A DNA stretch of 64,000 nucleotides from Scytalidium lignicola (lineage: Eukaryota; Ascomycota; Leotiomycetes): positions 1 through 64,000 of the forward strand of contig NCSJ02000008.1 of assembly GCA_002812745.2 (NCBI GenBank), read 5' to 3'. Each line of letters begins with the position of its first letter. Position 1 is the stretch's first letter. Positions 37,955 to 49,209 of this stretch are shown here, piece by piece. Position numbers and translations under genes: made by a program. A model generated the notes under the pieces. It searched no databases. It saw only the letters and a program-made list of their open reading frames with translations, and had not been told where the DNA came from.

Positions 37955-38104
37955 GGGGCGATAGCTCAGTTGGTAAGCGAATTTGGCTCTGTTTGGAAAT
38001 AGTCCTGGTACTAATATCGTTATAGGGAGAGCGTCAGACTGAAGTAAAACTTCTTTCTACAGATAGATATCTGAAGGTCACTGGTTCGATCCCGGTTCGG
38101 CCCA
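37955..38104 (+). tRNA. tRNA-Phe (GAA) with two introns
   Basis: The acceptor GGGGCGA (37,955-37,961) pairs with TCGGCCC (38,097-38,103), with one G-G mismatch at the fourth pair. A box TAGCTCAGTTG is at 37,962-37,972 and B box GGTTCGATCCC at 38,083-38,093. The anticodon stem TCAGA/TCTGA encloses loop CT-GAA-G-A, so the anticodon is GAA. A 24-nt intron (38,045-38,068) sits at the canonical 37/38 site. A further 53-nt insert (37,973-38,025) splits the D loop. Without both inserts the gene gives a D arm GCTCAGTTGGGAGAGC and a normal cloverleaf. T runs at 38,110 and 38,119 serve as Pol III terminators. The acceptor mismatch leaves open that the gene is a pseudogene. Confidence 0.85.
37973..38025 (+). 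other. Spliceosomal-type intron inside the tRNA D loop
   Basis: 53 nt starting GTAAGC and ending ATAG, with TACTAAT at 38,009-38,015. This places the branch A 11 nt before the acceptor. All are standard fungal pre-mRNA intron signals, and the length is typical. Exact removal joins AGTTG to GGAGAGC. The insert begins one base after the A box ends, leaving that promoter element intact. Confidence 0.7.
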
Positions 38105-39242
38105 CATCATTTTTCTTGTTTTTTTATTATTATTTTTTAAACAAGGTAGTTTAGTGTATATTATTTACAAGTGGGCGCCAAGTGGCCTAAATACATAGGT
38201 CCGAGGGCTCGTTTAGTGGGGTTTATTTTCTACACTTAGAACGTACAACAGTGTGCCTCTTCCGTATGTGATAGGATTCGATTAGGATGACTTGGGATAA
38301 TTTTATAGTGTGTGAAGCAATATGAGTAGAAGGGGGGTTCAAATAATTCAGTCTTAAGAATAAAATGTATTTAAATAGCTATTCGAGTTAGAAGGTATAG
38401 ATAACATTGAAACATCTCTGTCCCTTGATCACTGTTACTTATATTTGTCGCATCCTCAATGCTTGCGTCATCTGCCCTCTTCACTTGCACCCAGAGACTG
38501 TTGATAATACCAGATTACCAATCGTCATAGAAGGATATGTGAATCGGGCTTTTACCAACCATCGGCAAGGTCTCCCAGAGCTAGACGGCAGAATGGCAGA
38601 GCCTCTGCTTCCTACATCAGTTACCAAAACAGTCACGGCTGAACAACAATACCTACTTAATGAAATTGAAGGAAGACATATTAAATAACTGTTTGTCCTC
38701 TTCGACACTGATCATTTGCCTCTTTCAGAACAATCAGAATATTAAGAAGCATCAGGATTCATTCTGTAGTTATATAAAGCTTATTTTTATGAAACAGAAT
38801 GCCTTCTTGGTGGTGTTGTCTCTCCTTCTCTTCCTTTTAATTAGGTGCCATGGATGATGCGACCCTGGAGAGATATGAAAGCAGCGTCTCAATACAAATG
38901 TGGTCATCAATTCATACCAAGTAATGAGCTTGAGGCGAGATCTTGAGAACAACTGACAGTTACTAAAAAGCAAAGGGATTCTATATTCCAATCGTTGAAG
39001 GAGGAGTGTGGAGTTAAGAAAGGGCAGAAGAGATTAGATAAACCCTCTCTCCCTAATCAATGTTAATCAATAATACTCCAGCGATATTGATGCTATGCTA
39101 TACTATGCTCTCGCTAACTTAAAAATCCATCCAAAAGAAAAACATGTTTCTTCTCAAAGAAGCCCAATAAATTTGTAGTTTCCAATAATAATCATGATGA
39201 AAATTAAGATACAATATTGCTACATGACAACTTGATATCAGA
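38105..39242. other. Intergenic, nothing recognised
   Basis: Starts with the tRNA terminator. A 93-codon plus-strand frame at 38,407 and overlapping minus frames lack domain or splice support. Confidence 0.4.
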
Positions 39243-47970: not shown

Positions 47971-48072
47971 GGCAACTTGTCCGAGTGGTCTAAGGAGCTA
48001 GATTTAGGTCAATAATTAAGTTGTTGAAAACTCTAGTCTGCAAAGGCGTGGGTTCGAATCCCACAGTTGTCA
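47971..48072 (+). tRNA. tRNA-Leu (UAG) with intron
   Basis: The acceptor GGCAACT pairs with AGTTGTC (one G-T wobble), discriminator A at 48,072. The anticodon stem CTAGA/TCTAG encloses TT-TAG-G-C, anticodon UAG. A 22-nt intron (48,009-48,030) lies at the canonical 37/38 position. The long variable arm and T arm (GTGGGTTCGAATCCCAC) fit Leu. T8 at 48,077-48,084 terminates Pol III. The D arm (TCCGAGTGGTCTAAGGA) has the expected class II form and no extra insert. Confidence 0.9.
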
Positions 48073-48767: not shown

Positions 48768-49209
48768 CTACAAACTTCCCTCGCGTTCCAAATGCTCAAT
48801 AAGAGACTTGAACTCGTCATCTACTACTTGTTAGAACTGAAATTTTCAAGTAATTTAACTTGCTCTAATTCACCACTGTACTGAATATAGTATAGAAGTG
48901 GATTTACTTACACGTCATCTCCCTGCTAGTATTAATACCGCAGTTGTTACAGGCTCCTTCAATCGCCGCCGATGACAACGTCTTCCCGCTTAGCTTCTCA
49001 AGAGCCTTGACGGTCTCAGGTATACTTAGACCGTCATCATCATCATTGTCACCAGCCTGGAAGGCTGCCTTGATAGCAGATTCTAAGACCTTTCAAGTAC
49101 GCGGTTTGTGTTAGAGAAAGTAGGATTATTTTAAGAAAGAGGTAGGGAGAGCTACAGGGTGTCAAGTGTGGGAAAGTGTTGAGTTCAAAGATAAGATTGC
49201 ACATACCAT
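48768..49209 (-). CDS. Small EF-hand-like protein, three exons
   Basis: Proposed exons: 49,207-49,209 (the ATG alone, then GTATGT donor), 48,912-49,089 (acceptor tgaaag) and 48,768-48,826 (acceptor aacaag), giving 79 residues. The sequence VLESAIKAAFQAGDNDDDDG, then LSIPETVKALEKLSGKTLS, resembles an EF-hand loop with DxDxDxG-type acidic residues followed by its exit helix. A second helix pair ends DDEFKSLIEHLEREGSL. A stronger-looking acceptor (tttcag, ending at 48,836) would instead give a tail FLTSSR and stop. Calcium binding is inference. The single-codon first exon is unusual but fits the consensus well. Confidence 0.5.

Follow-up and report, generated by a model that had tools for sequence, protein, structure and literature searches.

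Anatomy of tRNA-Phe genes in Scytalidium lignicola points to probable spliceosomal introns in nuclear tRNA genes

A tRNA-Phe(GAA) gene interrupted by two introns of different kinds was found on the forward strand of a 64-kb stretch of DNA (the window) from Scytalidium lignicola DSM 105466. The window lies on contig C653 of the assembly that was searched (46.85 Mb, 664 contigs), and labels beginning with C and L refer to contigs and loci of this assembly respectively. The features of the gene, numbered by their positions in the window, are as follows.

37955..38104, + strand: tRNA-Phe(GAA) gene with two introns of different kinds, 150 bp (sequence; covariance score of 59.0 bits from a model partly trained on this gene; ARAGORN after removal of the insert)
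37955..37972, + strand: exon 1, tRNA positions 1-18 (sequence)
37962..37973, + strand: A box TAGCTCAGTTGG, uninterrupted in the unspliced DNA, its last G being the first base of the insert
37973..38025, + strand: GT-AG insert of 53 nt at tRNA positions 18/19, putative U2-type spliceosomal intron (GTAAGC, TACTAAT, ATAG; diverged counterpart in two other tRNA-Phe genes)
37973..37978, + strand: predicted 5' splice site GTAAGC, identical in 3/3 tRNA-Phe genes
38009..38015, + strand: predicted branch site TACTAAT with branch A at 38014 (ACTAAY in 3/3 tRNA-Phe genes, the A lying 11 nt from the insert end in each)
38024..38025, + strand: predicted 3' splice site AG (sequence)
38026..38044, + strand: exon 2, tRNA positions 19-37, anticodon GAA (sequence)
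38045..38068, + strand: canonical 37/38 tRNA intron of 24 nt, after G37 (sequence; ARAGORN on the insert-free sequence)
38069..38104, + strand: exon 3, tRNA positions 38-73 (sequence)
38083..38093, + strand: B box GGTTCGATCCC, about 110 nt downstream of the A box
38110..38114, + strand: T5 run that resembles an RNA polymerase III (Pol III) terminator and starts 6 nt past the gene

The insert had been described in an earlier sequence-only reading of the window, and that description held in our analysis. Its 53 nt begin with GTAAGC, carry TACTAAT with the branch A 11 nt before the end and finish with ATAG. Deletion of the insert by GT-AG rules rebuilds AGTTG+GGAGAGC, as had been proposed, and ARAGORN then calls a tRNA-Phe(GAA) with a 24-nt intron, in agreement with the second intron that had been placed at 37/38. 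The three exons (18+19+36 = 73 nt) form a cloverleaf in which 20 of the 21 pairs are standard. The exception is G4-G69, an acceptor G-G mismatch that had already been noticed and that recurs in all three tRNA-Phe genes of the assembly. The A box, on the other hand, had been said to end one base before the insert, whereas its last G is in fact base 1 of the insert. By its cloverleaf, its A and B boxes and its T-run the window gene matches a functional Pol III tRNA gene, and its expression as a charged tRNA is predicted.

Of the pairs in the endonuclease motif, the canonical intron has 3/4 central and 3/3 outer ones. A CTTC within this intron, complementary to GAAG, was seen by eye and may allow anticodon-intron pairing.

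Left unspliced, the gene was missed by an ARAGORN run that gave no tRNA within the window, and at Rfam gathering scores no RNA family was found at the tRNA-Phe locus and no tRNA within the window. With introns allowed, ARAGORN returned Glu, Met or no call for the unspliced tRNA-Phe genes, the window gene being miscalled as tRNA-Glu, and all three were called tRNA-Phe(GAA) once free of the insert.

A total of three tRNA-Phe loci were found in the assembly, both by pattern searches (three of 16 matches in the first and three of six in the second) and by BLAST (3/3), and the insert occupies position 18/19 in all three detected genes. Insert-free tRNA-Phe was not found in the assembly by the two pattern searches and BLAST, and tRNA-Phe was absent among the 41 nuclear tRNA genes typed from the Rfam matches listed. 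A count of the other tRNA-Phe genes had been suggested by the sequence-only reading, which took intact copies elsewhere and an insert that is not conserved as marks of a pseudogene; the genome-wide count gave the opposite outcome, with three loci in total, the insert in each and identical exons.

The exons agree at 73/73 nt in all three pairs of genes, and when the inserts are aligned pairwise they match at no more than 40/53, 30/51 and 37/49 positions. The elements that are invariant within the inserts are GTAAGCGAAT, ACTAA (with its A 11 nt from the end), GTT and AG. The flanks of the three genes are also diverged, though partly alike. Exon identity beside diverged inserts and flanks indicates selection on the exons, and an interior that drifts while the splice signals and the surrounding exons stay fixed is to be expected of an intron under splicing constraint. 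The A and B boxes and the terminators are intact in these genes. Another tRNA-Phe is found on C648, a probable mitochondrial contig, and this tRNA would not be a supply for the cytosol.

Six further tRNA genes were found to carry an insert of the same build, at four other positions.

C125: Thr-AGT, insert of 53 nt at 21/22
C129: Arg-TCT, insert at 25/26
C555: Arg-TCT, decayed copy (L123), insert at 25/26
C30: Trp, insert at 27/28
C140 and C373: Arg-ACG, insert at 31/32 in 2/2 copies found

The exons of the Thr-AGT gene are identical to those of an intronless paralogue at C510 (72/72 nt), and a second Trp gene, at C81, is without the insert. A Thr-AGT fragment in which most of the D arm is gone, a decayed tRNA copy, lies at L148 121-181 (C455). 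After removal of the inserts ARAGORN gave the expected calls for Thr(AGT), Arg(TCT) and Trp(CCA), as for the three Phe genes, and called the decayed Arg-TCT copy Lys(TTT). Both spliced Arg-ACG genes were called Tyr(GTA) because ARAGORN set the second intron at 33; with this intron at 37/38 the anticodon is ACG. A separate tRNA-Tyr-like gene was recognised by eye at C55 (L098). The second, canonical 37/38 intron is present in the Phe and Trp genes and was placed by eye in the Arg-ACG genes.

In total, the GT-AG insert is carried by 9 of 54 nuclear tRNA genes, a hand count on an incomplete set that combines the Rfam and covariance results with the three tRNA-Phe genes. The Rfam tRNA search of the assembly scored 63 of 2176 candidates, with at least 55 matches listed, and an intron-tolerant covariance model was applied to loci chosen by a B-box pattern (at least 193 matches). 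The training set of this model was without the Thr-AGT (C125), Trp (C30) and Arg-ACG genes, and the window tRNA-Phe was one part of it. Among the 52 places that match GGTTCGAWTCC, 20 further loci were scored and none was a tRNA (0/20, best 8.9 bits), and a further pattern scan (65 places, three further loci scored) gave 0/3. The Thr fragment at L148, a weak window match at 48793-48874 and the loci L082, L094 1525-1633 and L112 were left out of the 54. The last three (L082 1413-1522, L094 1525-1633 on the minus strand and L112 441-557) are tRNA-like and have an extra arm that is long. Their ends resemble one another (CCCAGATT or CCCGGATT .. AGGTCTGG), and they possibly represent a dispersed element.

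All nine tRNA inserts share a GTRAGY donor, an ACTAAY branch whose A lies 9-12 nt from the end, a terminal AG and a length of 48-56 nt, and all nine are located between the A box and the anticodon. A and B boxes, 80-111 nt apart, are present before splicing in 9/9 insert-bearing genes, which are followed by a T-run after 3-13 nt; the B box is altered in the decayed Arg-TCT copy. The portion of PMC5832005 consulted gives as rules for fungal introns an RCTRAY branch, a branch-acceptor distance of 6-36 nt, a donor that is mainly GTRWGT and an acceptor that is nearly always YAG. By these rules as given there, the branch and the distance are found in 9/9 inserts and the donor in 6/9, the remaining three being the Phe genes with GTAAGC.

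A loose signature (GT..CTRAY..AG, 48-56 nt; 575532 start/length combinations per window strand) occurs nine times on the plus strand of the window, including the Phe insert, with 17 occurrences on the minus strand and 16 in the reversed control. The nine tRNA inserts all have it, at boundaries set by the tRNA exons. A strict signature gave one match on the plus strand, the Phe insert, and no other in both strands or the reversed control, and it is present in 8/9 tRNA inserts, the Thr insert being off by one base of spacing.

An intron of similar appearance was found in a U6 small nuclear RNA gene of the same genome (L149, C33:222297-222347). This intron of 51 nt (GTAAGT..GCTAAT..ACAG) is located between GGTCATT and TTAAAACAATACAGAGA, just upstream of the ACAGAGA box. 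The U6-like matches at C195 and C657, both weaker, are outside this reading of U6, and an intronless U6 copy is possible. Fungal U6 belongs to the Pol III genes, and a U6 intron of fission yeast was reportedly described earlier. An mRNA intron of the host, in B7463_g854, has the donor GTAAGT and AACTGAC near its 3' end, and ends with ACAG. When the window was surveyed for host introns with a strict regular expression, the two strands had 0 and 1 matches; this is uninformative because the two controls also have 0 and 1.

We consider it very likely that the inserts represent spliceosomal introns of the U2 type, hosted by working Pol III tRNA genes, and that they would be removed by the spliceosome before the tRNA-splicing endonuclease (TSEN) cuts the canonical intron. 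This interpretation builds on what was observed directly, namely the anatomy of the genes, the restoration of the exons, the conserved signals, their repetition at five positions and the fact that no insert-free tRNA-Phe was found in the assembly. The earlier suggestion of a precursor needing both the spliceosome and the tRNA endonuclease is thus supported at the level of sequence, by the conserved signals in the three Phe loci, their repeat in other tRNAs and the U6 intron.

In the pathway that we infer, several nuclear tRNA genes would have gained U2-type introns in the stretch from the A box to the anticodon. The entire gene would be transcribed by Pol III from the A and B boxes, the nuclear spliceosome would take out the GT-AG intron, with excision predicted to proceed via a lariat, and the cloverleaf could then fold. 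TSEN and tRNA ligase would subsequently remove the 37/38 intron where one is present (Phe, Trp and, by eye, Arg-ACG). This order of steps is modelled on the yeast pathway; TSEN requires a folded mature domain and should therefore act after the spliceosome. Where a GT-AG intron and a canonical intron occur in one precursor, two unrelated splicing machines would be needed.

Several observations weigh against this interpretation. The G4-G69 acceptor mismatch is common to all three Phe genes. The acceptor is YAG in 6/9 inserts and AAG in the other three (two Phe and the Trp), and U3 introns end with YAG in all but one case according to the part of PMC5832005 consulted. The Arg-TCT copy L123 is decayed, a 31-39 mismatch was seen by eye in the insert-bearing Trp copy, and one acceptor pair of the Arg-ACG copy at C373 is non-standard; therefore, not every insert carrier need be active. 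Finally, the assembly searched is about 0.85 Mb smaller than the published version, an Ion Torrent draft of 826 contigs and 47.7 Mb with a BUSCO score of 97.6% (PMC6256649), and an intact tRNA-Phe might sit outside the assembly because it is a draft and the searched copy is the smaller one.

Some of these observations would also suit pseudogenes, or a dispersed family that is dead; the GT-AG-like insert would then be accidental or irrelevant, and functional tRNA-Phe would come from genes outside the assembly. The mismatch and the size of the 664-contig draft are in line with such an explanation, as are the partial likeness of the flanks and the existence of decayed relatives (Arg-TCT L123 and the truncated Thr fragment L148). 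However, it does not account for exons that stay identical beside diverged inserts and flanks, for intact boxes and terminators in the Phe genes or for the recurrence of GT-AG boundaries at five positions, and the two pattern searches and BLAST found no insert-free tRNA-Phe. We regard this explanation as improbable, and since the exons are identical and no insert-free copy was found we rejected it as the main explanation for the three Phe genes.

That the inserts are bulge-helix-bulge introns at ectopic sites, of the kind found in Cyanidioschyzon and archaea, and are removed by the tRNA endonuclease is less probable still. For archaea and for Cyanidioschyzon, a red alga, TSEN-type removal of ectopic tRNA introns is known (PMC3978253, in the part consulted). 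A strict bulge-helix-bulge (4-bp central helix, 3-nt bulges and flanking helices, in all registers giving the same product) was found in 0/9 inserts, and also in 0/2 of the controls, which were the canonical introns of two Phe genes; this count is weakly informative because the controls fail the strict form too. Two inserts, Thr and the decayed Arg-TCT, reach 3/4 central pairs and so equal both controls, but the outer helix has at most 2/3 pairs in the inserts against 3/3 in both controls. The main argument against endonuclease removal lies in the mRNA-type signals, as a bulge-helix-bulge would leave GTRAGY and ACTAAY at a fixed distance (9/9) unexplained.

It is hardly credible that, in genes which are real, the spliceosome acts on read-through Pol II transcripts rather than on the Pol III precursor. 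Splicing by the spliceosome is coupled to Pol II as a rule, but these genes have A and B boxes and are followed by T-runs at 3-13 nt, and an intron of this kind also occurs in a U6 gene of the genome.

Two other identities of the inserts were tried and rejected. An introner-like element was dismissed because introns of different tRNAs were not clearly more alike than by chance: in 15/15 pairwise comparisons of five tRNA-type introns and the U6 intron, the score was reached by 10 or more of 200 single-base shuffles. A group I or group II self-splicing intron was dismissed on length, the inserts having only 48-56 nt and the catalytic core of such introns taking hundreds of nt.

Spliceosomal introns in ascomycete nuclear rRNA genes are likewise mRNA-type introns in a non-coding RNA gene, whereas their hosts are Pol I genes; a 1993 study is said to have dealt with the 18S rDNA of deuteromycetes. 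Canonical TSEN introns at 37/38 also occur in the Phe, Trp and (by eye) Arg-ACG genes, whereas the inserts are found from 18/19 to 31/32 with mRNA-type signals. Fungal U6 and U3 introns have the same GT-AG ends and RCTRAY-type branch and lie inside short structured RNA genes, and paralogues with and without an intron coexist in eight genomes (PMC5832005, part consulted). In contrast, the hosts described here are tRNA genes with internal promoters, with five positions over five tRNA types, and some of them also hold a canonical tRNA intron. The ectopic bulge-helix-bulge introns of archaea and Cyanidioschyzon merolae similarly occur outside 37/38 and more than once per gene, but depend on RNA shape (PMC3978253, part consulted), whereas the inserts show conserved sequence signals.

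In the sections consulted, PMC3978253 restricts nuclear tRNA introns to 37/38, with cleavage by the endonuclease, and notes exceptions in algae, tRNAscan-SE 2.0 limits eukaryotic tRNA genes to one intron (PMC8450103), and U3 and U6 were named in 2017 as the sole small structured RNAs known to be often interrupted by introns (PMC5832005). No prior report of spliceosomal introns in tRNA genes was found in the open-licence PMC literature, subscription papers not being covered, and the parts consulted of PMC4090602, PMC13149111, PMC6461891, PMC11782384, PMC13130702 and PMC13148404 describe no such intron.

Nuclear tRNA genes of this fungus very often have a canonical 37/38 intron, those for Ala, Gln, His and Val included. 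A second tRNA in the window (47971-48072, plus strand) is probably a tRNA-Leu(TAG), its anticodon being read by eye, that contains a canonical intron at 37/38 and lacks the GT-AG insert. Positions 1-24000 of the window form an AT-rich block (18-30% GC) adjoining a gene region of 39-47% GC, and this block resembles the outcome of repeat-induced mutation of repeats.

Taken together, we think it likely that the decoding of Phe, and probably that of Arg CGU/CGC too, is wholly dependent on the spliceosome in this fungus, every cytosolic tRNA-Phe and tRNA-Arg(ACG) precursor undergoing mRNA-like splicing first and TSEN cleavage afterwards. Spliceosomal introns would then be a third way to interrupt nuclear tRNA genes, gained probably five times as they occupy five positions, and they would have been overlooked because eukaryotic tRNA finders expect introns at 37/38 only. 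Missed or miscalled tRNA genes are accordingly predicted in other fungal annotations. The splicing of mRNA and of tRNA is taught as two separate systems with separate substrates, and a precursor with one intron of each kind would join them. Intron gain would be extended to Pol III genes that are very short, have internal promoters and give folded products. The Thr-AGT genes with and without the intron, whose exons are identical, offer a minimal pair for the handling of a Pol III transcript by the spliceosome. If the interpretation is true, the translation of a whole amino acid depends on the spliceosome.
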